From Devosia sp. ZB163 (GTDB lineage: Bacteria; Pseudomonadota; Alphaproteobacteria; Rhizobiales; Devosiaceae), in contig NZ_JAQRMY010000003.1 of assembly GCF_028613635.1 (NCBI RefSeq), positions 384,787 to 448,786 on the forward strand: a stretch of DNA of 64,000 nucleotides, read 5' to 3'. Below the pieces are notes generated by a model that worked only from the letters and a program-made list of their open reading frames with translations, was not told where the DNA came from and searched no databases. This document shows positions 45,915 through 57,778 of this stretch, in pieces (positions within the stretch are counted from its first letter, which is position 1; each line of letters begins with the position of its first letter). A program made the translations under genes and the position numbers.

Positions 45915-45945
45915 TTGTAGGATCGCCTGCCCGACGACCCTACAA
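45915..45945 (-). terminator. Hairpin overlapping the stop codon of the SIS gene
   Basis: TTGTAGG (45915-45921) pairs with CCTACAA (45939-45945), extended by an inner TCG-CGA pair. The stop codon of the SIS gene (45940-45942) lies in the stem. No U-run follows, so termination is only probable. Confidence 0.55.
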
Positions 45946-46680
45946 CCCCCTGATCCGCGATTGCCACCGGCGGATCATTTCTTCTGCAGCCGCTTCCGCG
46001 CCCTGCATGTTGGCACTCTGGTAGACATCGACTTCCACGCCGCCAGCCGCGAGCTTGTCGACGGCTTCGGCGACGACGGTATTGAGGATGAAGACCCCGG
46101 CAATGGTCGAGGTCGGTCCCATGCGTCGCTCGTGGCCGACGACGAGGGCGGCATCGCCATACTCGCCGCCGTTGTCGAGCACGAGGTCGGTCACCTGATA
46201 GAGGAGCTTGCCCGAGCCGTGCCGGGAGGTGATGGCGGCGGCGTGGCGCATCGAGGTGAGCGCGATCGTCGTGGCGCCGCGCGCCCTGCAGGCGAGAGCC
46301 ATCTCGATGGGGTAGGCGTTGCGGCCGGAATTGGAGGCGATGAAGACGACGTCGCCGGGCCCGACGGGGTAGTCGGCCAGGACGCGCTCGGCGCGGCCTT
46401 CCTCCCGTTCGAGCAGGGTGGAGCGTTCGGCTCCCAGGTGCAGCATGAGGTCGGGATCGAGGATGGCCTGGGCAGCGGCGATACCGCCGGCGCGGTAGAA
46501 GACTTCTTCGGCGATCAGGTGCGAATGTCCGGAGCCGGCCACGTAGATGAGCCGGTCGGCGGCGAGCGCGGCGGCGACGGCGTCGCGGGCAGCGTCGAGC
46601 GAGGCGACCTGCTCTGTCAGCACGCGGTCGATGATGCCGACAACCTGGTTGCGGTAGCGCTGGCGGGGGGTGTCGATCAT
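45940..46680 (-). CDS. SIS-domain phosphosugar-binding protein
   Basis: SIS domains bind phosphorylated sugars in isomerases, deaminases and regulators. The 246-residue protein has the two SIS features VAGSGHSHLIAEEVFYRAGG and FIASNSGRNAYPIEMALACR, and a C-terminal VEVDVYQSANMQGAEAAAEE helix. It fits the uncharacterised SIS family often found beside sugar ABC transporters. ATG 46680 starts 4 bp after the GntR stop, so the two are an operon. Given the neighbouring GH84 gene, an amino-sugar phosphate is a plausible ligand. Confidence 0.88.
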   Translation of the reverse strand: MIDTPRQRYRNQVVGIIDRVLTEQVASLDAARDAVAAALAADRLIYVAGSGHSHLIAEEVFYRAGGIAAAQAILDPDLMLHLGAERSTLLEREEGRAERVLADYPVGPGDVVFIASNSGRNAYPIEMALACRARGATTIALTSMRHAAAITSRHGSGKLLYQVTDLVLDNGGEYGDAALVVGHERRMGPTSTIAGVFILNTVVAEAVDKLAAGGVEVDVYQSANMQGAEAAAEEMIRRWQSRIRGL

Positions 46681-46684
46681 GACG

Positions 46685-47419
46685 TTAGCCCCTGATTTCG
46701 CCGACATACTTGTAACGGTCCCCGCGGTACCAGGTCATTGCATCCTCGACGACCGTGCCGGTCTGGCCATAGCCGAGCTGCGCGACCTCGAGCACGGCGG
46801 CGCCCGGGCGGATGCCCAGGTGGGCGGCGAGCGCTTCGTCTGCCTCGGTGGCAGAAAGGCTCTGCAGCACGCGGTGGGGGCGGGCGTTGCGCGCATCCAT
46901 CCGCTCGTAGAGGGAGCCCGAGCCGTCGTAATCGGCGCCGACGGCCTCGACCGGAACCACGGCGCGCTCCAGCGCGATTGCCTCGCCGCCGGCGAGGCGC
47001 AGGCGAACGAGCGTGAGGATGGGCGAGCCAAGCGGCAGGCCCGTGCGGAAAGCGGCATCGGCGCCGATCCGGCCGATGGAGCACTCGAGCACCCGGGACG
47101 TCGGTTCGAGCCCGCGCAGGCGCATGTCTTCGGTGAAGCCGGAGAGGCGCGAAAGGGCCTTGGGGATACGACCGACAACCACAGTGCCGGCGCCCGGCCG
47201 CGTGGCGACGATGCCCTGTTGTGCGAGCTCCTTCAGCCCCTGCCGGAGAGTGGAACGCGACACGTTCAGTTCATCGGCCATCTCGCGCTCAGAAGGGAGC
47301 GATTCGCCGGGCGCAATGGCGCCCGAGTCGAGCACGGCGGTCAGCGCATGGCGTAGCCGCTCGCCCAGAGGGCCGTGCTGTGCCGCCATCCTTTCGAGTA
47401 CCGCTGCGTAGAAGTCCAA
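46685..47419 (-). CDS. GntR-family regulator with UTRA effector domain (NagR/DasR-like)
   Basis: The protein has a GntR winged helix (about 20-85: ESLPSEREMADELNVSRSTL, GIVATRPGAGTVV) and a UTRA ligand domain (about 95-240). HutC-subfamily members such as NagR and DasR sense amino-sugar phosphates. The start is uncertain: TTG 47419 has GGAGG 4 bases upstream, while GTG 47434 has none. It is divergent from the transporter-GH84 operon, and a NagR/DasR-type palindrome lies between them. It probably represses both arms until the imported sugar is processed. Confidence 0.9.
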   Translation of the reverse strand: MDFYAAVLERMAAQHGPLGERLRHALTAVLDSGAIAPGESLPSEREMADELNVSRSTLRQGLKELAQQGIVATRPGAGTVVVGRIPKALSRLSGFTEDMRLRGLEPTSRVLECSIGRIGADAAFRTGLPLGSPILTLVRLRLAGGEAIALERAVVPVEAVGADYDGSGSLYERMDARNARPHRVLQSLSATEADEALAAHLGIRPGAAVLEVAQLGYGQTGTVVEDAMTWYRGDRYKYVGEIRG

Positions 47420-47458
47420 GAGTCCTCCGGACACTGGTTGGGTGCCTGATCTTTTGGC

Positions 47459-47559: not shown

Positions 47560-47615
47560 TTGGCAGGGGAGATAGCTGCCGAGGGATTTGGGGCGAAAAC
47601 AGGGTGTTACCTAGG

Positions 47616-48881
47616 ATGGCCAAGAGATTCACGCTGGCGACAGCCACCGCATTGCTGCTGCTGACCACGGCGGCGATCGCGCAGACCGAGGTGCGGTTCA
47701 CGCACTCCATTACCGGCGGCGCGAGCCGCGAGGCGCTCGATGCGATCATTGCCGATTTCGAGGCGGCCAACCCCGACATCAAGATCAAGGAAATCGTCTT
47801 CGACGACGATCAGTATTCCAACCAGGGCCTGATCACGCAGCTCAAGAGCAACGAGGTCCCGGACATCTTCTTCGAATGGGCCGGCTATCCGGTGCAGCGC
47901 GATGTCGAGGCGGGTTATGCCTATGACCTCAGCGAAGCCATGGCCACCGACGGCTGGAAGGAAAGCTTCTCCGACGCGGTGTGGACTGATGGCGCCGGGA
48001 CCATGGTCGACGGCAAGCCGTACCTCGTGCCGCTGTCGCTCGATCTGACCAACACCATCTGGTACAACAAGAAGATCTTCGCCGAGCACAACCTGACGCC
48101 GCCCAGGACCTGGGACGAGTTCGTCGCGCTCAACAAGACGCTGGCCGAGGCTGGCGAGACGCCGATCGTCGAGGGCAACAACGAATTCTGGCCGCTGGGC
48201 AACTGGGCCGGCCACATCGCCGCCATGGTGGTTCCGCCCGACGCCTATGTCGCCGCCTTCAAGCAGGAAGCGCCGTTCAATACGCCGGAGTTCGAGAAGG
48301 CGCTGAACCTGCTCGTCGGCCTGCACGAGGTCGGTGCGTTCAACAAGGACATGCAGGCGCTGGGCGCCGATCCGGCGATGGCGACGTTCTTCCAGGAAGG
48401 TGCCGTGATGCACCCGATCGGATCGTGGCTGGTGTCGGAGACGGGCAACCTCGCCGACGAAGGCTTCGAATACAGCCAGTTCAACACGCCGCCGATCGAT
48501 CCGGCTCACCCGCTGGCCAACAGCGTCATCGGCACGATCACCGGGCTCGTCGTCCACAAGAACGCGCAGCATCCGGCTGAGGCGATCAAGTTCCTCAAGT
48601 TCCTCACCTCCGAAGCCAGCCAGGTCAAGTGGGCCGAGAGCGGGCAGATGAGCCCGGTGCAAGGCGTGAGCGACAAGGCCAAGCTCGACGAGCAGACGCA
48701 GGCGATGCTGGCGCTGATGAGCGGCGCTTCGGGCATCGTGCCGCCGCCGGACAACAAGTACCCGGTGCCGGTCGCCGAGGCCTTCTACCAGGCCGCCGCG
48801 TTTGCGGCGTCGGGCGAAAAGAGCGCCAAGGACGCGCTGGTCTGGCTCGACGAGACGCTTGCCGCGATGGGCAAGCAGTAA
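47616..48881 (+). CDS. Sugar ABC transporter substrate-binding protein (CUT1 type)
   Basis: This periplasmic protein of 421 residues has a signal peptide (about 1-22, ending TAAIAQ) and the family-1 extracellular solute-binding fold: FTHSITGGASREALDAII, IFFEWAGYPVQRDVEAGYA, NTIWYNKKIFAEHNLTPP. Its first place in an operon with two permeases and a GH84 hexosaminidase suggests a GlcNAc-containing sugar as ligand. ATG 47616 is used; the ribosome site is weak, and a GTG lies at 47604. Expression is probably controlled by the GntR protein. Confidence 0.93.
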   Translation: MAKRFTLATATALLLLTTAAIAQTEVRFTHSITGGASREALDAIIADFEAANPDIKIKEIVFDDDQYSNQGLITQLKSNEVPDIFFEWAGYPVQRDVEAGYAYDLSEAMATDGWKESFSDAVWTDGAGTMVDGKPYLVPLSLDLTNTIWYNKKIFAEHNLTPPRTWDEFVALNKTLAEAGETPIVEGNNEFWPLGNWAGHIAAMVVPPDAYVAAFKQEAPFNTPEFEKALNLLVGLHEVGAFNKDMQALGADPAMATFFQEGAVMHPIGSWLVSETGNLADEGFEYSQFNTPPIDPAHPLANSVIGTITGLVVHKNAQHPAEAIKFLKFLTSEASQVKWAESGQMSPVQGVSDKAKLDEQTQAMLALMSGASGIVPPPDNKYPVPVAEAFYQAAAFAASGEKSAKDALVWLDETLAAMGKQ

Positions 48882-48895
48882 GCCGGCGCCGTATT

Positions 48896-49789
48896 TTGCA
48901 AGACCGTTCGGCCCCAATCAGCACCGGCGCCGCGAACATGTTGTTCGCGGCGCCAGCGATGCTCCTGTTCGCGACCTTCGTGCTGCTGCCGCTGGGCGCG
49001 TCGGTCTATTATGCTTTCACGTTCTGGGACGGGTTCAGCGCGCCGCGGTGGGCCGGGTTCGCCAACTTCGCCCGGGCGCTGACCGATCCGACGTTCCTCA
49101 TGTCGTTCGTCCACGTCGTCTTCTACATCGCCGCGACGCTCATCTTCGAGGTGACGTTCGGGCTGGTGATGGCGGTGCTGCTGAACTCGGACCGGCGTGG
49201 CTTTTCGCTGATGCGCGGGATGTTCTTCGCGCCGGTGGTGCTCTCGATGTCGGCGGCGGGCGTGTTGTGGAAGTTCGTGCTCGACTACCGCACCGGGCTG
49301 CTCAACTCGACGCTGAGGTCGGTGGGGCTGGGTGACTGGGCGCAGCCGTGGCTGGCGCAGCCGGAGACGGCGCTGCTCTTCATCTGCATCGTCTCGGGCT
49401 GGAAATATGCCGGTTTCTACATGGTGATCTTCTTTGCGGCGCTCAGGCGCATTCCGCGCAACCTCTACGAGGCGGCGCGGCTCGATGGGGCCAATGGCGT
49501 GCAGCAGTTCACCGCGATCACGCTGCCGATGCTGAAACAGAACGTCATCGTCTGCATCCTCCTCGCGGTGACCGGCGGCTTTGCCGGGTTCGACCTGTTC
49601 TTCACCATGACTAACGGGCAGCCGTTCGGGGCGACGGAAGTCCCGGCGACCTGGATCATCAAGCAGGCCTTCGACCAGAACCAGATCGGCTATGGCGTGG
49701 CGCTCACGGTGGTGCTGACGGTGGTCGTGTCGCTGATCTCGATCGCGTACCTCAAGATTTCGGAGCGCGGCAATGTCACGCGCTACTGA
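48896..49789 (+). CDS. Sugar ABC transporter permease, MalF type
   Basis: This 297-residue inner-membrane protein has about six helices and the EAA loop ARLDGANGVQQFTAITLPML, which contacts the ATPase. The start is uncertain: TTG 48896 gives a normal-length N-terminus, ATG 48938 is 14 codons later, and neither has a good ribosome site. It lies 14 bp after the binding-protein gene and overlaps the next permease by 17 bp. No ATPase gene follows, so it must share one encoded elsewhere. Confidence 0.92.
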   Translation: MQDRSAPISTGAANMLFAAPAMLLFATFVLLPLGASVYYAFTFWDGFSAPRWAGFANFARALTDPTFLMSFVHVVFYIAATLIFEVTFGLVMAVLLNSDRRGFSLMRGMFFAPVVLSMSAAGVLWKFVLDYRTGLLNSTLRSVGLGDWAQPWLAQPETALLFICIVSGWKYAGFYMVIFFAALRRIPRNLYEAARLDGANGVQQFTAITLPMLKQNVIVCILLAVTGGFAGFDLFFTMTNGQPFGATEVPATWIIKQAFDQNQIGYGVALTVVLTVVVSLISIAYLKISERGNVTRY

Positions 49790-50612
49790 ACGGCGACGCA
49801 ACGCAGCCGAGTGGCTGCAGTTCGGCACCGCCGGCGTCATCGTGCTGGTGATGTTCTATCCGGCGATCTGGATGGTCTATTCGTCGTTCAAGTCGAACCG
49901 CGAGATCTTCCGGGCGCCGTTCGCCCTGCCGTCGCAGTGGCGCTGGGAGAACCTCATCGAAGCCTGGAATGTCGGCGGGCTCGGGACGCTCTACCTCAAC
50001 TCGGTGTTCGTGACGCTCGTTGCCGTCAGCATGTGCGTGCTGTTCGCGACGGCGGCGGCGTTCGCGTTCACGCGGCTCGAGTTTCCGGGGCGGAAGCTCA
50101 TGTACCGGATCCTGCTGATCGGGTTGCTGCTGCCGCCGCCTTCGGTCGCGATCGCGCTGTTCACGCAGTTGCGCGACATGCACCTGCTCAACACGCCGTG
50201 GGCGCTGATCCTGCCCGGGGCGGCGTGGCAGCTGGCGTTCACCGTGTTCCTGATGCGGGCCTATTTCATCTCGATCCGACCCGACATGGAGGAAGCGGCG
50301 CGGCTCGATGGCGCCAACACCTGGGAGATCTTCTGGCACGTGTCGGTGCCGATGGTCTGGCCGGCCATGCTGACGATGGTGGTGCTCAACACGATCAGCG
50401 TCTGGAACGAGCTGCTGTTCGCGCTGCTGTTCATCACCGACGACGCGCAGCGCACCCTGCCGGTCGGGCTGGTGCGATTCTCGGGTTACCACAGCACCGA
50501 CTATTCGCTGGTGTTCGCGGCGCTGACCATCACCACGGTGCCGATCCTCATCCTCTACTTCATCCTGCAACGGCATGTGATCGCCGGGCTGACCGCAACA
50601 GCGATGGACTGA
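49773..50612 (+). CDS. Sugar ABC transporter permease, MalG type
   Basis: This 279-residue protein has about six membrane helices and the EAA loop EAARLDGANTWEIFWHVSVP, the MalG partner of the preceding permease. It overlaps that gene by 17 bp and is followed by the GH84 gene after 3 bp. All are read in one direction, so one mRNA probably carries transport and cleavage together. Confidence 0.95.
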   Translation: MSRATERRRNAAEWLQFGTAGVIVLVMFYPAIWMVYSSFKSNREIFRAPFALPSQWRWENLIEAWNVGGLGTLYLNSVFVTLVAVSMCVLFATAAAFAFTRLEFPGRKLMYRILLIGLLLPPPSVAIALFTQLRDMHLLNTPWALILPGAAWQLAFTVFLMRAYFISIRPDMEEAARLDGANTWEIFWHVSVPMVWPAMLTMVVLNTISVWNELLFALLFITDDAQRTLPVGLVRFSGYHSTDYSLVFAALTITTVPILILYFILQRHVIAGLTATAMD

Positions 50613-50615
50613 CCC

Positions 50616-52097
50616 ATGGGAACTGTTCACGACTTTCCGAATGTCACGGCATCGCCGCCCGGCCTTTCCGGCTGGTCGCTCGAGGTGCTGCTGGATCAAC
50701 CCGAGCGGCGAGGCAGCGGGGCCGTCAAGGCGACGCCGGCGTTTCTTTCGGGCGTGATCGAGGGCTTCTACGGCCGCGCCTGGACGCATCCGCAGCGGGT
50801 CGAGATGCTCGACTGGATCGCCAATGCCGGGATGAACAGCTTCGTCTACGGACCCAAGGACGACATCAAGATCCGAGCGCGCTGGCGCGAACTCTACAAC
50901 GCGGCGGAAGCCGCAGCACTCCGGGAGCTGGTCGAGGCGGCACGTGCGCGCAAGCTCAACTTCATGGTGGCGATCGCCCCATGTCTCGATGTCGTCTATT
51001 CGGACGCAAGCGACCTCGAGGCGCTGAAGCGCAGGCTCGACCAGCTCCTGGACCTCGGCATCACGCATTTCGCACTGCTGTTCGACGACATCCCGCCGAC
51101 CATGATGCCGAGCGACGAGAGGGCCTTCCCGTCGTTCGCGGCGGCGCAGAGCTATTTCGCCAACGAGGCGTTCCGGCATGTGCGGGCGCGGGCGCCACAG
51201 GCGACGGTGCTGTTCTGCCCGACCGAGTATTGCGGGGCGTTCGCAGGGCACGACGTGCCGGGCTCGAAGTATCTCAATACCATCGGCGCCGAGCTCGATC
51301 CCGAGATCGGGGTGTTCTGGACGGGGCCGGATATCGTCTCGAAGACGATCAGCGCCGAGAGCCTGCGCGAGGTCGGCCGGGTGCTGAGGCGCAAGCCCGT
51401 GATCTGGGAGAACTTCCACGCCAACGACTACGACATCCGCCGCATCTATGCGGGCCCGCTCGGCGGGCGGCATGCCGACATCCTGCCGCTGATCGGCGGG
51501 ATCATCACCAACCCCAACAACGAGTTCGAGGCGAACTTCGTGCCGGTGCAATCGACCGGGGCGTTCGCGTCCGGCTCGCATGACGAGGCGGCGGTATTCG
51601 CGGTGGCGCTGAAGGCCTGGCAGCCGCGGTTCCGGCTGGCCTTCACCGGGCAGACCGAGACGCTGACTGAGGAGGAAATCCGGCTGCTCTGCGAGCTGTT
51701 CTACCAGCCGTTCCGGTGCGGGCCGCAGGTCGAGGGGCTGCTGCAGACGGCGCGCCGGCTGATGAGCGAGTGGCGGCCGGACGTGCGCAGCGAGAGCTGG
51801 CAGCAGGGACACGACGCGCTGGTGGGGCTGCGCGACCGCGTTCGCGAGCTGTTCAACCGCATGACCGAACTCGAGAACCGCGACCTGTTCTATGCCTTCC
51901 ACCCCTATCTATGGGAGGCGCGGGAGGAGATGACGCATCTGGTCACCTATCTCGACTGGCTGGCGGGCGATCCGCCTGATCATGCCGAGTTTCCCGATCG
52001 CGACCGAATCTATAACTTCTACCGCCTTGGGTTCACCGTCGCCGTGCAGGAGCTGCTGCCGCGCGATGCGCGAGGGCGATATAGGCATGGACGTTGA
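50616..52097 (+). CDS. GH84 beta-N-acetylglucosaminidase resembling human O-GlcNAcase
   Basis: GH84 enzymes remove beta-linked GlcNAc with help from the substrate acetamido group. The 493-residue protein has the GVIEGFYGRAW opening (46-56), the YGPKDD loop (78-83), the catalytic Asp pair D157-D158 in HFALLFDDIP, and later FCPTEYCG, FWTGPDIVSK, VIWENFHANDYD and TNPNNEFEAN. I recall most of these in nearly the same form from the catalytic domain of human O-GlcNAcase. There is no signal peptide, so it should act in the cytoplasm on imported or internal substrates. A helical C-terminal region (about 340-480) follows. Its stop overlaps the next gene, a GNAT that resembles the other half of human O-GlcNAcase. 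Confidence 0.95.
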   Translation: MGTVHDFPNVTASPPGLSGWSLEVLLDQPERRGSGAVKATPAFLSGVIEGFYGRAWTHPQRVEMLDWIANAGMNSFVYGPKDDIKIRARWRELYNAAEAAALRELVEAARARKLNFMVAIAPCLDVVYSDASDLEALKRRLDQLLDLGITHFALLFDDIPPTMMPSDERAFPSFAAAQSYFANEAFRHVRARAPQATVLFCPTEYCGAFAGHDVPGSKYLNTIGAELDPEIGVFWTGPDIVSKTISAESLREVGRVLRRKPVIWENFHANDYDIRRIYAGPLGGRHADILPLIGGIITNPNNEFEANFVPVQSTGAFASGSHDEAAVFAVALKAWQPRFRLAFTGQTETLTEEEIRLLCELFYQPFRCGPQVEGLLQTARRLMSEWRPDVRSESWQQGHDALVGLRDRVRELFNRMTELENRDLFYAFHPYLWEAREEMTHLVTYLDWLAGDPPDHAEFPDRDRIYNFYRLGFTVAVQELLPRDARGRYRHGR

Positions 52098-52719
52098 TCT
52101 TGGTGACGGCTACCGGCTGAGGAACGCGACTGAAGCGGACCGGCCGGCGCTGGAGATGGTCTGTCTCAAGACGGGCGACTCCGGGAAGGACGCGACGGCG
52201 CGGGAAGACGATCCCCGGCTGCTCGGGCTGATCTATGCCGTGCCCTACCAGGTATTCGCGCCCGAGTTCGCCTTCGTCATCGACGGGCCGGACGGGGTCG
52301 TCGGCTATGTGCTGGGGGTGAGCGACACCGAGGCCTACGACAAGTGGGCGACGGAGGAGTGGTTCCCCGAGGTGGCGCGGACGCTCGACGATCCTGGGCC
52401 GGACAAGGCGAAGTGGCAGGGCAGCGACTGGGCCCGCCGCGCCATCCACTACCCGAGCTTCACGCATCTGGAGGCGCTGCGTCCCTATCCGGCGCACGGG
52501 CATATCGACCTGCTGGAGACGGTGCAGGGCAGGGGCTTCGGGCGCAAGGCGCTGGATCACCTGACGGCGGCGATCGCCGCGTCCGGCGCCAAGGGACTGC
52601 ACCTGGCGGTCAGCCCGACCAATACGGGCGCGCTGGCGTTCTACGAACGGGTCGGGTTCAGGCGGCTGACGGGCGGGGATGTTCCGCGCGGTGCGGTGTA
52701 CATGGTGAAGGAGCTCTAG
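52087..52719 (+). CDS. GNAT protein resembling the O-GlcNAcase pseudo-acetyltransferase domain
   Basis: The 210-residue protein starts with GYRLRNATEADRPALEMVCL and has DPRLLGLIYAVPYQVFAPE, FAFVIDGPDGVVGYVLGVSD, HIDLLETVQGRGFGRKALDHL and LAVSPTNTGALAFYERVGF. This order matches the acetyltransferase-like domain at the C-terminus of animal O-GlcNAcase and its known bacterial relatives. Unlike the human domain, motif A is intact here (Q147-GRG-FG), so acetyl-CoA binding is plausible. ATG 52087 overlaps the GH84 gene by 11 bp. Activity and substrate are unknown. Confidence 0.9.
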   Translation: MDVDLGDGYRLRNATEADRPALEMVCLKTGDSGKDATAREDDPRLLGLIYAVPYQVFAPEFAFVIDGPDGVVGYVLGVSDTEAYDKWATEEWFPEVARTLDDPGPDKAKWQGSDWARRAIHYPSFTHLEALRPYPAHGHIDLLETVQGRGFGRKALDHLTAAIAASGAKGLHLAVSPTNTGALAFYERVGFRRLTGGDVPRGAVYMVKEL

Positions 52720-52732
52720 GAGCTCCTTCTGC

Positions 52733-53509
52733 CTATGGCCTGTCCGGCATGATGCGGAAGTCGGCGCCTTCGGGCAGCAGTTGGCCGCCGTCGACGACGA
52801 TGGTGGTGCCGGTGATGTAGGCCGCTTCGTCCGAGGCGAGGAACAGGAAGGCGTTGGCGACGTCGCGCGAGCTGCCGAGGCGGCCGAGCGGGATGGCGTC
52901 CTCCATGCCCTTGATGAACTCGGGCGAGCGATGGAACTGCATGGCCTCGGTCATGATGTTGCCGGGCTCGACGCCGTTGACGGTGATGCCGTAGCCGGAG
53001 AACTCGAGGGCGGCGGCGCGGATCAGGCCGTTGATGCCGGCCTTGGTGGCCGAGTAGTGGCCGTGGCCGGGGCTCGTGACGTGCGGCCCGGTGATCGACG
53101 AGGTGAAGAGGATGCGGCCCGAGCGCTGGCGCTTCATCGGCTCGAGGGCGGCGCGGGCGGCGATGAAGCTGCCGCGCAGGTTCACGCCCATGACGCGATC
53201 CCAGTCGTCGACCGAGGTGTCTTCGAGCAGCTGCCAGGGATAGATGCCGGCGTTCTGGACCATGATGTCGAGCCGGCCGAAACGCTCGACGGCGAGGGCG
53301 ACGGCGGCTTCGGCGTCGGCGAGCTTCGAGATATCGACATAGGCGAAGGTGGCGCCGAGTTCGGCGGCGGTGGCGGCACCGGCCTCGCGCTCGGTATCGG
53401 CGACGATCACGCGGGCGCCTTCCTCGACGAAGCGGAGGGCGGTGGCCTTGCCGATGCCGCGCGCCGCGCCGATGACGATGGCGACCTTGCCTTCAAGACG
53501 TCCGGTCAT
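52733..53509 (-). CDS. Short-chain dehydrogenase/reductase (SDR)
   Basis: This 258-residue protein is a classical SDR: GAARGIGKA nucleotide motif, NAG in the fourth strand, the catalytic Ser and Tyr-x3-Lys in SSITG and YSATKAG, and a C-terminal VDGG. An Asp after the second strand (VIVADTE) favours NAD(H). ATG 53509 overlaps the permease stop (ATGA), and the gene ends the sugar-transport operon on this strand. It probably oxidises the imported sugar or polyol. Confidence 0.92.
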   Translation of the reverse strand: MTGRLEGKVAIVIGAARGIGKATALRFVEEGARVIVADTEREAGAATAAELGATFAYVDISKLADAEAAVALAVERFGRLDIMVQNAGIYPWQLLEDTSVDDWDRVMGVNLRGSFIAARAALEPMKRQRSGRILFTSSITGPHVTSPGHGHYSATKAGINGLIRAAALEFSGYGITVNGVEPGNIMTEAMQFHRSPEFIKGMEDAIPLGRLGSSRDVANAFLFLASDEAAYITGTTIVVDGGQLLPEGADFRIMPDRP

Positions 53510-54501
53510 GCGAGTTTCTGCCTCAGTCTGAGTTTCAGGGCATCGAGCAGCACCGCGGCGAGGACGAGCAGGCCATGGATCACCTGGGTGAAATTGGCCT
53601 GGACCCCCATCAGGTTGATGGCGGTGTTGATCGAGGAAAGAAGGAGCACGCCGGCATAGACGCCGGGCAGGGCGCCGACGCCGCCCTTGAGGCTCACGCC
53701 GCCGATGACGACGGCGGCGAAGGCGTTGAACAGCATGCCGGTGCCGAGGTTGGCGGTGGCGCCGGAGGTGCGGATGGCGAGCAGCCAGCCCGAGAGGCCG
53801 GCGATGGCGCCGGCGAGGATGAAGGTGATGACGAGGATGCGGTTCACCTTGATGCCGGCGCGATAGGTGGCGTTCTCGTTGCCACCGATCATGATGAGAT
53901 GGCGGCCGAACGGGGTCTTGGCCATCACGAACGAGAAAGCCACGAAGCAGAAGATGGCGATCCACGCGGTCAGCGGCAGGCCGAGCAGGCGCTGGATGCC
54001 GAACCAGCGGATGGCGGGGGCGAGGTCCTGGGCCGAGCGCCCGCCCGACACGGCGAGCACGATGCCGCGCACCCAGATGTAGCTCGCCAGCGTGACGATG
54101 AAGGCGTTCATCCGCAGCTTGACGATGAGGAAGCCGTTGATGGCGCCGACGATGCCGCCGGCCAGCATGCCGAGGAACAGCGAGACCGGGACCATGATCC
54201 AGGCGGGCTCGAGCGTGATGCCCATGCCGATGCCGGCCGAGCAGAAGAGAATGCCCACAGTCATGGCGCTGAGCGCGGCGACGGACTCGACCGAGAGGTC
54301 CATGTGTCCGGCGATGATGACGAGCGCGAGCCCGATCGACATGACGCCGAGGACGCTCGAGGCCTCGATGATGTTGGCGAATATGCCGAGCTGGAAGTAG
54401 TTCGGGATGAACAGCGAGAATGCCGCAAGGATGGCGAGCAGCATGAACCAGACGAGGTTATCGAGGATGAACTCGAGAGTGCGGCGGGTGCGTGGGGTCA
54501 T
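53506..54501 (-). CDS. Sugar ABC transporter permease (RbsC/FrcC type, CUT2)
   Basis: This 331-residue inner-membrane protein has about nine to ten hydrophobic helices and the CUT2 permease marks GHMDLSVESVAALSAM and GGNENATYRAGIKVNR. It lies between the binding-protein gene and the SDR gene. A 280-bp repeat-filled gap separates it from the binding-protein gene, so its expression may be lower. It should work with the ATPase and binding protein upstream. Confidence 0.94.
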   Translation of the reverse strand: MTPRTRRTLEFILDNLVWFMLLAILAAFSLFIPNYFQLGIFANIIEASSVLGVMSIGLALVIIAGHMDLSVESVAALSAMTVGILFCSAGIGMGITLEPAWIMVPVSLFLGMLAGGIVGAINGFLIVKLRMNAFIVTLASYIWVRGIVLAVSGGRSAQDLAPAIRWFGIQRLLGLPLTAWIAIFCFVAFSFVMAKTPFGRHLIMIGGNENATYRAGIKVNRILVITFILAGAIAGLSGWLLAIRTSGATANLGTGMLFNAFAAVVIGGVSLKGGVGALPGVYAGVLLLSSINTAINLMGVQANFTQVIHGLLVLAAVLLDALKLRLRQKLA

Positions 54502-54537
54502 GCTCGTGGATGGCTCGGTTGCGATGTCTCAGTCGGT

Positions 54538-54706
54538 CTCCCTCCCCTTGATGGGGAGGGGTAGCGTAGCTTGGTCGCATCGCGACCTAGCGAAGCTGGG
54601 TGGGGTGGGCGGCAGGTCGGATCGAGTGTGAGTCTACCCCCACCCTAGTTCCGCTACGTCGCTACCGCTCCCAGCTCCACTACCCTCCCCACAAGGGGGA
54701 GGGAGG
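54538..54706. repeat. Long inverted-repeat element inside the sugar transport operon
   Basis: The left arm, CTCCCTCCCCTTGATGGGGA followed by GGGGTAGCG, is repeated in inverted form near 54670-54706 (ACTACCCTCCCCACAAGGGG then GAGGGAG). It is a large version of the CTCCCTCCCC element at 25341-25467. It lies between the permease and the binding-protein gene. Confidence 0.8.
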
Positions 54707-54719
54707 GGCGGTGTGCTTG

Positions 54720-54765
54720 GCGCCCCCTCACCCTGACCCTCTCCCCCAAGGGGAGAGGGGACGAT
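54720..54765. repeat. CCCTCACCC...GGGGAGAGGG palindrome
   Basis: GCGCCCCCTCACCCTGACCC then TCTCCCCCAAGGGGAGAGGG forms a short palindrome of the same family as 2885-2990. With the element to its left it fills the 280-bp gap; I see no gene there. Confidence 0.75.
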
Positions 54766-54781
54766 GTGGCACCAGCAGTGG

Positions 54782-55822
54782 CTACTCGATCGACTTCACC
54801 GTGTCGGTCGGCGGCTTGAGGTTGCCCCAGAACTTGGGGTCATCGACGTTGGATTTGTCGATGGCGGCGCCCGGGAGCTTGATGTTGGGGCCCCAGGCTT
54901 CGGTGGTGACGGTGCCGTCGAGGCCGATGATGTCGTACTGGCCGGGTGCGATCTCGGCCTTGTTGACGATCTTGTCCATGAAGGCGGCGACGGCGGCGGC
55001 CTGGGCGTAGAGCGGCTGCTCGACTTCGACGTTGAGCCAGCCCTTGCGGATCAGGTCGAGGCCGACCGGGGCGCCGTTCGAGCTCATCAGCATGATGTCG
55101 CCAGGCTGCTTGCCGGCCGCTTCGAGCGCGGCGACGACCGCGACCGAGAGGTGGGCGGCGTGGCTGAAGATGAGGTCGATGTCGGGATTGGCGACGAGCT
55201 GGTCAGCGGCGATGGTGCCGGCGTTGCTGGCTTCCCACTGCATGGCCGGCACGGAGATGATCTTCACGTCCGGGAACGCGGCCATCTTCTCCTCGAAGCC
55301 CTTCTGGATGTCGAGCGTGTACGGGTCGCCCGGATCGCCGAGGATCTGCAGGATCTTGCCCTTGGGCGAGCCGTGCTTCGCAGTCAGCAGCTTTTCGGCC
55401 TGCTCGGCGGCGATGTAGCCAATCTCGACGGTGCCGGCGACCGAAGTGAAGGCCGAGGGGGTCGAGGTGATCTGGCGGTCAAACTCGACCACCGGGATGC
55501 CGGCGGCCATTGCCGCCTCGATCGAGGGCTTGAGGGCGTTGAAGTCGACGGCGGCGAGGACGATCGCAGCGGGCTTGAGCGCGATGACGTCGTTCATCTG
55601 GCTCTGCTGCATGTCGGTCTTGTTGTCGGCGTTGAGCGTCTTCACCTCGTAGCCGACCTGCTTGAGGAAGGTCTCGAGGGCCGAGACCGAGCCGGTCTGG
55701 AATTCGTCGAGCAGCGTCGGCACGAGGTAGTAGACCGTGCCCTTGGTCTGGGCGAAGGCCGGCGTCAGCATGGCAAAGGCCACCGCCAGAACGCCGAAGA
55801 CGGATAGGAGTATTCGCTTCAT
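54782..55822 (-). CDS. Sugar ABC transporter substrate-binding protein (RbsB/FrcB type)
   Basis: This 346-residue periplasmic protein has a signal peptide (about 1-24, ending TPAFAQ) and the type-I periplasmic binding fold of ribose- or fructose-like importers: [49 protein letters not shown]. It lies after the ATPase gene, with a 40-bp gap and a good ribosome site. The ligand cannot be told from sequence; the ROK regulator and SDR suggest a monosaccharide or polyol. Confidence 0.93.
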
Positions 55823-55862
55823 TTCGTTCGCTCCTGTTTGCCGGATTCCCTGTTACTGCCCC

Positions 55863-56633
55863 TCAGCCTGCCGCTCCGGCAGCGGCGAGGGTTTCCCCGG
55901 TGATCATCCTGACCACCGCATCGGGGCTCGTATCCTTTCGGGCAACGTCGCCGGCCACGACGCCCTGGCGGATCACCACGATCCGGTCGGCGACCTGGAA
56001 GGCCTGCTGCATGATGTGGGTGATGATGACGACGCCGATGCCCTGGTTGGCGACGGCGCGGATCATGTCGAGGCCGCGGCGCGTCTGTTCGACGCCGAGG
56101 GCGGCGAAGGGCTCGTCGAGCAGGACGAGCTTGCCGCCCCAGTGGACGAACCGGTTGAGCTCGATGGCCTGGCGCTGGCCGCCCGAGAGATGCTCGACCT
56201 TGGTGCGCAGCGAGGGGATCCTCGTTCCGGCATTGGCGAGCGCCTTGGCCACCACGGCCTCCATGGCCTTCTCGTCGAGGACGGGGATGCCGAGCACCCG
56301 GCGCGTCAGTTCGCGGCCCATGAAGAAGTTGGCGACGACGTCGACATTGGTGGCGAGCGAGAGGTCCTGGTAGACGGTCTCGATACCCGCCGCCTTGGCC
56401 TCGGCCGGCGATTTGGCGAGGAACTCGCGGCCCTCGAAGAGCATGCGGCCGGAGGTGGGTTCGAGGCCGCCCGAAATGATCTTCACCAGCGTCGACTTGC
56501 CGGCGCCGTTGTCGCCGAGGAGCGCCACTACCTCGCCCTTGCCGATGGTAAAGCTGATGCCTTTCAGCGCTTCGATGGCGCCGAAGTTCTTCCGGATATC
56601 CTCGAGGACGAGCAGGGGCGCGAAGCTGGTCAT
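55863..56633 (-). CDS. Sugar ABC transporter ATP-binding protein, single-domain (FrcA type)
   Basis: This 256-residue ATPase has one nucleotide-binding domain: Walker A GDNGAGKST, signature HLSGGQRQA and Walker B KLVLLDEPFAALG. Most CUT2 importers have a double-length ATPase; the single domain is like FrcA of rhizobia. The start overlaps the ROK regulator stop by ATGA. It probably energises the RbsC-type permease downstream. Confidence 0.94.
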   Translation of the reverse strand: MTSFAPLLVLEDIRKNFGAIEALKGISFTIGKGEVVALLGDNGAGKSTLVKIISGGLEPTSGRMLFEGREFLAKSPAEAKAAGIETVYQDLSLATNVDVVANFFMGRELTRRVLGIPVLDEKAMEAVVAKALANAGTRIPSLRTKVEHLSGGQRQAIELNRFVHWGGKLVLLDEPFAALGVEQTRRGLDMIRAVANQGIGVVIITHIMQQAFQVADRIVVIRQGVVAGDVARKDTSPDAVVRMITGETLAAAGAAG

Positions 56634-57778
56634 GCGGCGATGCCCTTTGTCTGGTCGCGGCCTGGTGCGAAGAGTTGGCCGAAGCGGGGGGAGAGGACGC
56701 CGGTGACGGCGAGCGCAGCGGCGCCGCGCAGCACGGTGTGCGGGCCGCCCTTCGAAACGATGAGCCGCGGCACCTTGCGGTCGCTGCGGGCGGAGACGGA
56801 GTTGGGCAGATCGGTTGCGGCGCGCACCAGTTCGTCGACGAGGCCGGCATGGGCGAGGCCGCCCAGGATCACCGTTTCCGGATCGAACAGGTTCTCGATG
56901 GTGATGAGCGCGGCGTGCAGCAGCGGGCGGATCTCGTTGACCCAGTCGGCCTCGCCGAGCCCGCGGCGGGCGAAGGCATCGAGCGAGATGTAGCGCTCGA
57001 GGCAGCCGCGATTACCGCAGGGGCAGAGTTCGCCGCCTGGGACCAAGGGGATATGGCTGATCTCGCTGGCATTGCCCCAGGCGCCGCGCAGCGCCACGCC
57101 ATCATGCACCATGATGCCGCCGAGCCCGACGCCGATGAACAGGTAGTAGAAATCGGCGAACTCGGCGCCCCGGCCGTAGAGCCGCTCGCCGAGCGCGGCG
57201 GCAGCCATGTCGGACTCGATGAAGGCGGGCAGCCCGGTGACTTCGGCAAGCCGCTCACGCAGCTGCACGTTGCCCCAGCCGACCATGGTGGTGGGGCCGA
57301 CGAAGCTCATCGACGCGACACCGAACGGGCCGGGCAGCGACAGGCCGACGCCGAGCATGCGGGCGCCGTGCCGCATTGCGCGCAGCTCGTCGACCATGGC
57401 GCGGATCAGGGTGAAGGCCTCGTCCGGCGTGGCGCGGGTGGCGCTGCGATGCGTGCTGCCGATGACGTCGCCGGCGAGGTTGATCAGTGCCGCATCGATG
57501 CCCAGCGGGGTGATGTAGACGCCGATGGCGTAGCCACCCTCGGGATTGATGCGCAGCGTCGTGGGTGGCAGGCCGCGGCCGCGCGGTTCCTCGCGATTGG
57601 CGAGGATATAGCCCTGTTCCTCGAGCTCGCGGATGATGGTGGAGACGGTCTGGACAGTGAGCCCGACCTCGGCTGCGATGCGGCCGCGCGTGGTGGGGCC
57701 ACCCGAGCGGATCGCTTCGAGCACGATGCGCCGGTTGTATGGCCGGCCGAATTCCTGGTTCGTCCCTCTCAGGCCCAA
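56630..57778 (-). CDS. ROK-family transcriptional regulator
   Basis: ROK repressors join a winged helix to a sugar-kinase-like domain. The 382-residue protein has the helix-turn-helix at about 25-60 (TTRGRIAAEVGLTVQTVSTI) and the ROK domain with the zinc motif CPCGNRGCLE (near 240). TTG 57778 is used because GGGAGG lies 6 bases upstream. It leads the ATPase-binding protein-permease-SDR row and probably represses it until the sugar binds. The 140-bp gap upstream should hold the operon promoter. Confidence 0.93.
   Translation of the reverse strand: MGLRGTNQEFGRPYNRRIVLEAIRSGGPTTRGRIAAEVGLTVQTVSTIIRELEEQGYILANREEPRGRGLPPTTLRINPEGGYAIGVYITPLGIDAALINLAGDVIGSTHRSATRATPDEAFTLIRAMVDELRAMRHGARMLGVGLSLPGPFGVASMSFVGPTTMVGWGNVQLRERLAEVTGLPAFIESDMAAAALGERLYGRGAEFADFYYLFIGVGLGGIMVHDGVALRGAWGNASEISHIPLVPGGELCPCGNRGCLERYISLDAFARRGLGEADWVNEIRPLLHAALITIENLFDPETVILGGLAHAGLVDELVRAATDLPNSVSARSDRKVPRLIVSKGGPHTVLRGAAALAVTGVLSPRFGQLFAPGRDQTKGIAA

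Follow-up and report, generated by a model that had tools for sequence, protein, structure and literature searches.

The two halves of O-GlcNAcase as overlapping genes in Devosia: a recurrent GH84-acetyltransferase pair in a candidate amino-sugar salvage locus

In Devosia sp. ZB163 the two halves of animal O-GlcNAcase (OGA) are separate genes that overlap by 11 bp, and the same linkage recurs across Alphaproteobacteria, Verrucomicrobiota and a third phylum. This recurrence is new here. So is the observation that the surrounding locus is one for sugar uptake and shows amino-sugar features, in Oceanicola as well as in Devosia. The overlapping two-gene arrangement itself was published in 2013 for Oceanicola granulosus, and the Devosia pair is a further case. 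Judging from sequence and from analogy, there is about an even chance that the pair belongs to an operon for amino-sugar salvage, in which the acetyltransferase would N-acetylate glucosamine or glucosaminides for the GH84 enzyme.

The gene pair and its neighbours

The DNA analysed (the window) is a stretch of 64,000 nucleotides. Its relevant features are:

45940..46707, minus strand: SIS-domain phosphosugar protein, 255 aa; NCBIfam PRK02947, 276.5 bits (cut-off 135); Pfam SIS_2
46685..47434, minus strand: GntR/UTRA regulator, divergent from the transporter; Pfam GntR and UTRA, both over cut-off
47604..48881, plus strand: sugar ABC transporter solute-binding protein; Pfam SBP_bac_1
48896..49789, plus strand: ABC transporter permease 1; Pfam BPD_transp_1; start set by eye from relatives, the frame being open from 48629
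49773..50612, plus strand: ABC transporter permease 2; Pfam BPD_transp_1
50616..52097, plus strand: GH84 beta-N-acetylglucosaminidase, O-GlcNAcase type, 493 aa; PF07555, E 1.4e-76
52087..52097, plus strand: 11 bp shared by GH84 and GNAT; 52097 is the last base of the GH84 stop codon
52087..52719, plus strand: GNAT acetyltransferase of the OgpAT / O-GlcNAcase C-domain family, 210 aa, starting with ATG at 52087

The two open frames bear out the initial annotation, which had described the halves of O-GlcNAcase as separate, overlapping genes. The SIS gene was compared with NCBIfam and Pfam models only. The top NCBIfam model for the solute-binding protein is NgcE (GlcNAc/diacetylchitobiose binding); the score of 72.7 bits falls short of the model's cut-off, 399.65, and no assignment was made. 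The gene next after the GNAT is an SDR on the opposite strand. It opens a stretch (52733-57778, all opposite to the GNAT) that also holds ribose-type ABC transporter genes and a ROK regulator. A ROK gene also lies near the GNAT in several Mesorhizobium loci whose stretches are without GH84 (e.g., L092, L093 and L103).

The closest solved relative of the window GH84 is 11lh/7khs (OgOGA; 536.6 bits), the letters of which are those of the O. granulosus GH84 in locus L101. Human OGA follows at about 313-322 bits, with both the catalytic domain and the stalk aligned; residues 347-485 match the C-terminal helical stalk of the human enzyme. Scores are lower for 5diy, which we take to be the T. terrenum enzyme (168.5 bits), for BT_4395 (about 140-142) and for the NagJ entries (about 122-133). 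D157 and D158 align with human D174 and D175, and both Asp are kept in 67/67 rows, the window included. No signal peptide is seen by eye.

The GNAT matches three generic Pfam GNAT models. In a phmmer search against solved structures, 3zj0 (OgpAT) is matched at 5.6e-69, 4bmh (SsAT) at 2.1e-29 and human OGA at 2.2e-7 (9qen residues 589-772). A profile of 18 family members aligns over its whole length with residues 711-916 of human OGA (about 1e-24; 89-90 bits). It scores 66-70 bits with the Trichoplax OGA domain, whereas other GNATs reach at most 37.5 bits through the C-terminal motif alone. Homology with the O-GlcNAcase C-domain, as claimed for this gene from the outset, is upheld, and the three segments quoted in support align with the human domain in the claimed order in both the phmmer and the profile comparison. 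The suggested structure prediction agrees. An AlphaFold2 model (mean pLDDT 95.5) is closest to OgpAT (3zj0; Z 30.4, 201 residues, rmsd 1.7), then to SsAT (4bmh; Z 27.9) and the Trichoplax OGA domain (6r45; Z 23.6), with the next match at 16.5.

The acetyl-CoA P-loop of the window GNAT is Q147-G-R-G-F-G152 (motif [QR]xxGx[GA]). This motif is at the aligned position in 83/89 rows and absent in human, Trichoplax, L008, L011, L012 and L023; in three relatives of the Devosia type the P-loop is changed to RGRKIG or RGRQIG. Two histidines, H137 and H139, are invariant in 18/18 aligned GNATs. Both are kept in 87/89 rows, the human domain having neither and Trichoplax lacking one. The named-genome scan sought YP[AS]H[GLA]HI[DN]L, which makes the histidines in those rows partly a matter of construction; this does not apply to the 18 aligned rows. 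Both Rao et al. (PMC3814719) and He et al. (PMC3919268) considered these histidines for catalysis. Because P-loop and histidines are retained in nearly all rows, the bacterial GNAT looks like a working enzyme.

How does the window compare with the known case? According to Rao et al. (2013; PMC3814719), the O. granulosus acetyltransferase frame lies directly downstream of OgOGA and shares 30% identity with its human counterpart; the authors stress how closely the arrangement resembles the order of domains in the human protein, and give the biological functions as unknown. The same two families occur there in the same order with the same 11-bp overlap (L101), at 54% identity to the window for GH84 and 59% for the GNAT, and regulator, SIS and solute-binding genes flank the pair as they do in the window. 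The difference lies downstream. In O. granulosus a NagK-like frame (46% identical to the gene of genome G022) directly follows OgpAT, whereas the window has the opposite-strand SDR. SsAT of Streptomyces sviceus belongs to the same GNAT family, but it branches with GNATs that do not adjoin GH84.

Distribution of the linkage

The initial annotation had proposed a survey of adjacency. In a local sample of 61 genomes (the strain itself and relatives; close GNAT defined as E below 1e-60), GH84 is present in 14 and a close GNAT in 18, and all 14 bearers of GH84 are among the 18. The two genes are adjacent in 13 of the 14, own genome included. One of these adjacencies (G014) is seen on a contig that bears only the end of GH84. 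In G016 the genes are on separate contigs. GH84 was not detected in the other four of the 18 (G005, G007, G024 and G035).

A wider scan, of named genomes, gave at least 580 GNAT relatives; the 80 best of them are here called the 80 named loci. A same-strand GH84 lies upstream of the GNAT in 24 of these, six in Alphaproteobacteria and 18 in Verrucomicrobiota, counting L112, a MAG whose GH84 branches with them. The gap between the genes is 814 bp in L142 and below 200 bp in all of the other 23. No fusion was found among these 24 bacterial pairs. Two GH84 frames of 907 aa (L185 and L189) were considered as extended proteins and rejected, the extra length being upstream read-through before the normal start. 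No GH84 is present in 54 of the best 80.

The initial annotation suggested that the two proteins act together. The GNAT start codon falls within the end of GH84 in 15 named pairs out of the 22 measured (ten by 4 bp, four by 11 bp and one by 8 bp), and Oceanicola (L101), L087, L091 and L104 place it at the offset seen in the window. Perhaps the GNAT acts on GH84 itself, either as a partner subunit in a complex or as a modifier that acetylates it, and this contact became fixed by fusion in animals; the animal domain is reported to regulate the catalytic core (PMC12494797). However, the GNAT occurs without detected GH84 in 4/18 close genomes and in most of the named loci, its cofactor site is intact, and the O. 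granulosus GH84 and GNAT were crystallised separately (PMC3814719). A partnership of this kind is decidedly unlikely.

In the third phylum, that of L125 (Trueperaceae), GH84 is found in 11/111 genomes. The GNAT is adjacent in four and elsewhere in the genome in three (G961, G1036 and G1049); it was not found in the remaining four (G955, G978, G1031 and G1053), the GH84 of G1053 being cut by the contig end. Some GNAT at E<=1e-15 is present in 78/111 genomes. L125 itself belongs to a genome without detected GH84, and carries upstream of its GNAT a 143-aa frame (L125:6550-6981) that resembles the GH84 C-terminal stalk alone. It is possibly a GH84 stripped of its catalytic domain. The frame before it looks phosphotriesterase-like by eye.

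GH84 is rare in Pseudomonadota (10/398 genomes; 8/289 in the class, one of them weak). In the sample of 398, a GNAT accompanies GH84 within the stretch in two cases, the window and L243, and these are also the two GH84s of the O-GlcNAcase type. In 194 Verrucomicrobiota genomes drawn around G377, which was picked for having the pair, GH84 occurs in 39 and the GNAT in 17 at E<=1e-15, and G377 alone has both. The other 193 include 38 with GH84, 16 with the GNAT and none with both. A general GH84-GNAT link is therefore unsupported. Of the GH84s from this sample that entered the trees, all but that of G377 fall outside the O-GlcNAcase type, and it is this type that the GNAT link concerns. Most GH84 rows were reached via the GNAT, a bias that the Verrucomicrobiota, Pseudomonadota and third-phylum samples correct only in part.

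The initial annotation had also described the opposite outcome: a generic acetyltransferase, adjacent to GH84 in this genome alone. What was found is a recurring linkage and a GNAT whose nearest relatives are OgpAT, SsAT and OGA C-domains.

Amino-sugar genes around the pair

An SIS relative is present in 15/22 relative loci (window included) and in 12 of the 80 named loci. A NagK-like gene follows the GNAT in G022 (L059), L097 and the Verrucomicrobia locus L118, its best model being NF046058 at a score under that model's cut-off. In L118 the GH84, GNAT, kinase and SIS genes are found together with transporter genes, the latter assigned by clustering; of the whole set, just the regulator is missing. 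In L117, L123, L133 and L134 (Verrucomicrobia or allied) the first or the second gene downstream of the GNAT encodes a PTS IIC protein. The PTS IIC cluster is found in 16/80 named loci, with one member over the cut-off of the lactose/cellobiose-family model TIGR00410.

Plasmids offer further cases. On a Falsirhodobacter plasmid, a far GNAT relative (36.8%) directly precedes nagB and a NagA-like gene, with a NagK-like kinase in the cluster. Seven plasmid GNAT loci out of 31 records, this one included, were looked at. A BadF/NagK-like kinase is present in two of the seven; one has nagA 3 kb off, one has ROK and Gfo/Idh genes only and three have none of these. Two loci of one genus (L056 and L058) show the GNAT beside GntR and SIS genes, an M20-peptidase-like gene and, by eye, a dipeptide-type transporter; GH84 is absent from both.

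Marker genes (GH84, SIS, NagK, NagA or NagB) were counted with sources taken from foreground loci (the window, L059, L097, L118 and L157) and the plasmid records L079, L084 and L085. At least one marker is present in 29/80 named loci and in 15/22 relative loci (window included; 22 of 24, two on short contigs being omitted, and mostly of one genus), against 1/40 control stretches, which are hand-chosen round positions, mostly in Alphaproteobacteria and none in Actinomycetota. Leaving GH84 out gives 12/80, 15/22 and 1/40. The counts are the same with self-matches barred and relatives trimmed to 7 kb. At least five named genomes recur among the relatives; without them 25/75 named loci have a marker, and eight a non-GH84 marker. 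No marker is present in 51 of the best 80 named loci, including 23 of the 24 actinobacterial ones, with L157 the sole exception. nagA is found in 35/37 genomes of the family irrespective of GH84.

These counts bear on the possibility of chance or general clustering with no functional link. GNATs are abundant, and the Verrucomicrobiota sample is without co-occurrence outside G377. However, adjacency in 13/14 local bearers of GH84, in 24/80 named loci and in four third-phylum genomes, set beside a single marker in 40 control stretches, makes coincidence scarcely credible.

What if the GNAT detoxifies or modifies some other amine that is imported by the same transporter, and owes its place in the operon to this? 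Its divergence is fast (56-62% identity, against 84-89% for GH84, in 5/6 genome comparisons), it is accompanied by different transporters, and a small-molecule pocket has been described for SsAT (PMC3919268). Recurrent pairing with GH84 and amino-sugar genes across several phyla speaks against this possibility, which is unlikely but to be taken seriously.

A further idea is that bacteria of this kind cycle protein O-GlcNAc, with the GH84 as a true O-GlcNAcase. A GT41-family (OGT-like) frame does exist elsewhere in the genome (G000:C3:982-2031). However, over 430 kb of the contig separate it from the locus, and a match is also obtained in Caulobacter, where GT41 serves flagellin glycosylation. 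The locus itself holds transport and sugar genes. Nothing found links it to protein O-GlcNAc and, on gene content, the neighbours point to sugar salvage; O-GlcNAc cycling is highly improbable.

A proposed role in amino-sugar salvage

For the salvage operon, the following route can be envisaged. The ABC transporter would import a small glycoside bearing glucosamine or GlcNAc. The GNAT would N-acetylate glucosamine or glucosaminides, and so supply the 2-acetamido group that GH84 requires. GH84 would then cleave off the terminal beta-GlcNAc in the cytosol. The chemistry behind this proposal is that the 2-acetamido group of the substrate takes part in GH84 catalysis, as stated for human OGA (PMC10636738). 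Since this group serves as the nucleophile, a free-amine sugar is not a GH84 substrate, and a glucosamine N-acetyltransferase would therefore make free-amine glycosides cleavable. The analysis shows gene content and its conservation, the fold, and the retention of cofactor motif and catalytic residues; we infer the sugar specificity, the order of the steps and the function of the SIS protein, with neighbourhood and precedent as the guides to the GNAT acceptor. One known SIS-gene function, that of the GlcNAc-6P dehydratase NagS, is described as confined to Streptomycetaceae (PMC12680351).

The precedent is fungal. RmNag of Rhizomucor, in which a GH3 domain is joined to a GNAT, N-acetylates GlcN to (GlcN)5, and acetylation is required before (GlcN)2 is cleaved (PMC4680927). 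For the bacterial family, the OgpAT acceptor was unidentified in 2013 (PMC3814719, section 3.2). SsAT has a tunnel-like pocket, for which a small polar acceptor was suggested and peptides were not excluded (He et al., PMC3919268). No proposal of an amino-sugar acceptor was found in the literature searched, which mostly comprised papers outside subscription.

Some observations do not fit the salvage reading well: the GNAT without GH84 in 4/18 close genomes, the 51/80 named loci without a marker, the mixed plasmid loci, the missing co-occurrence in Verrucomicrobiota outside G377, the company that the GNAT keeps in L056 and L058, the changed P-loop of three Devosia-type relatives, the presence of nagA irrespective of GH84, and the NagK-like and NgcE matches under their cut-offs. 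Nevertheless, a recurring sugar-salvage locus would suggest concrete acceptors, GlcN and (GlcN)n, for proteins that have already been crystallised. It would also suggest a concrete ancestral role for the tail of animal O-GlcNAcase.

Origin of the animal enzyme

Human OGA shares the GH84 domain and stalk with the window protein, and human and Trichoplax OGA both end in a GNAT-like fold. They differ in being one chain, in having lost the P-loop (both) and the histidines (human both, Trichoplax one), and in acting on protein. On the salvage reading, two such genes appear to have been joined in animal O-GlcNAcase, the acetyltransferase half having lost its cofactor site.

Trees were built after near-duplicates had been dropped by hand, leaving 65 and 67 GH84 rows and 89 GNAT rows (of 115); human is the sole eukaryote in the GH84 trees. 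In the 65-row tree human OGA falls within a 38-row clade of GNAT-linked or GNAT-holding bacteria (98/87). With less biased rows (67), it falls in a group of 44 (99/97), seven of them without an adjacent GNAT, and stands next to Verrucomicrobiota rows (95/91). The initial annotation suggested that the two genes may show the state before fusion. This idea is supported in so far as the human enzyme groups with the GNAT-linked type. However, AU tests do not reject trees in which human is sister to the bacterial rows of this type, 43 in all (p 0.29), or lies outside the three linked clades (p 0.30; groups named after the tree was seen). On sequence, then, the human GH84 domain belongs to the often-GNAT-linked type, and may have arisen within it or beside it. 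In the 89-row GNAT tree the animal domains join four linked third-phylum GNATs (95/79), on very long branches that make this position untrustworthy.

A bolder scenario can be put forward. Perhaps GH84 and a glucosaminide N-acetyltransferase were acquired together from a bacterial amino-sugar salvage operon and then fused, so that the animal pseudo-acetyltransferase would be the inactive remnant of an enzyme that acetylated sugars rather than histones. This is possible, if doubtful. The structure papers argue against histone acetyltransferase activity of the human domain. In the Trichoplax work oga is described as metazoan-specific among eukaryotes (PMC4424335), which, together with the wide spread of the GNAT in bacteria, fits acquisition.

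Fungi have reached a similar combination. Rhizomucor RmNag and Candida Ngs1 also join an N-acetylglucosaminidase-type domain to a GNAT, but the former domain is GH3 and not GH84 (PMC4680927, PMC5063960), and Ngs1 senses GlcNAc and is required for the acetylation of histones (PMC5063960). The GNAT family profile was searched against the PDB, and entry 4ZM6, presumably the RmNag structure, is not among the matches listed (60 of 72). For this reason the RmNag pairing is probably a separate, convergent one.

Within the operon the two genes have not changed at the same pace. The GNAT is the most divergent of the matched genes in 6/6 comparisons of the window with G001, G003, G011, G012, G015 and G017 (56-70% identity, against 78-89% for GH84). 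The trees also disagree, with the window grouping with L003 for the GNAT (99/98) and with L005 and L004 for GH84 (100/89). Divergence and conflict together may be a sign of allele exchange, or of fast change, inside the operon.
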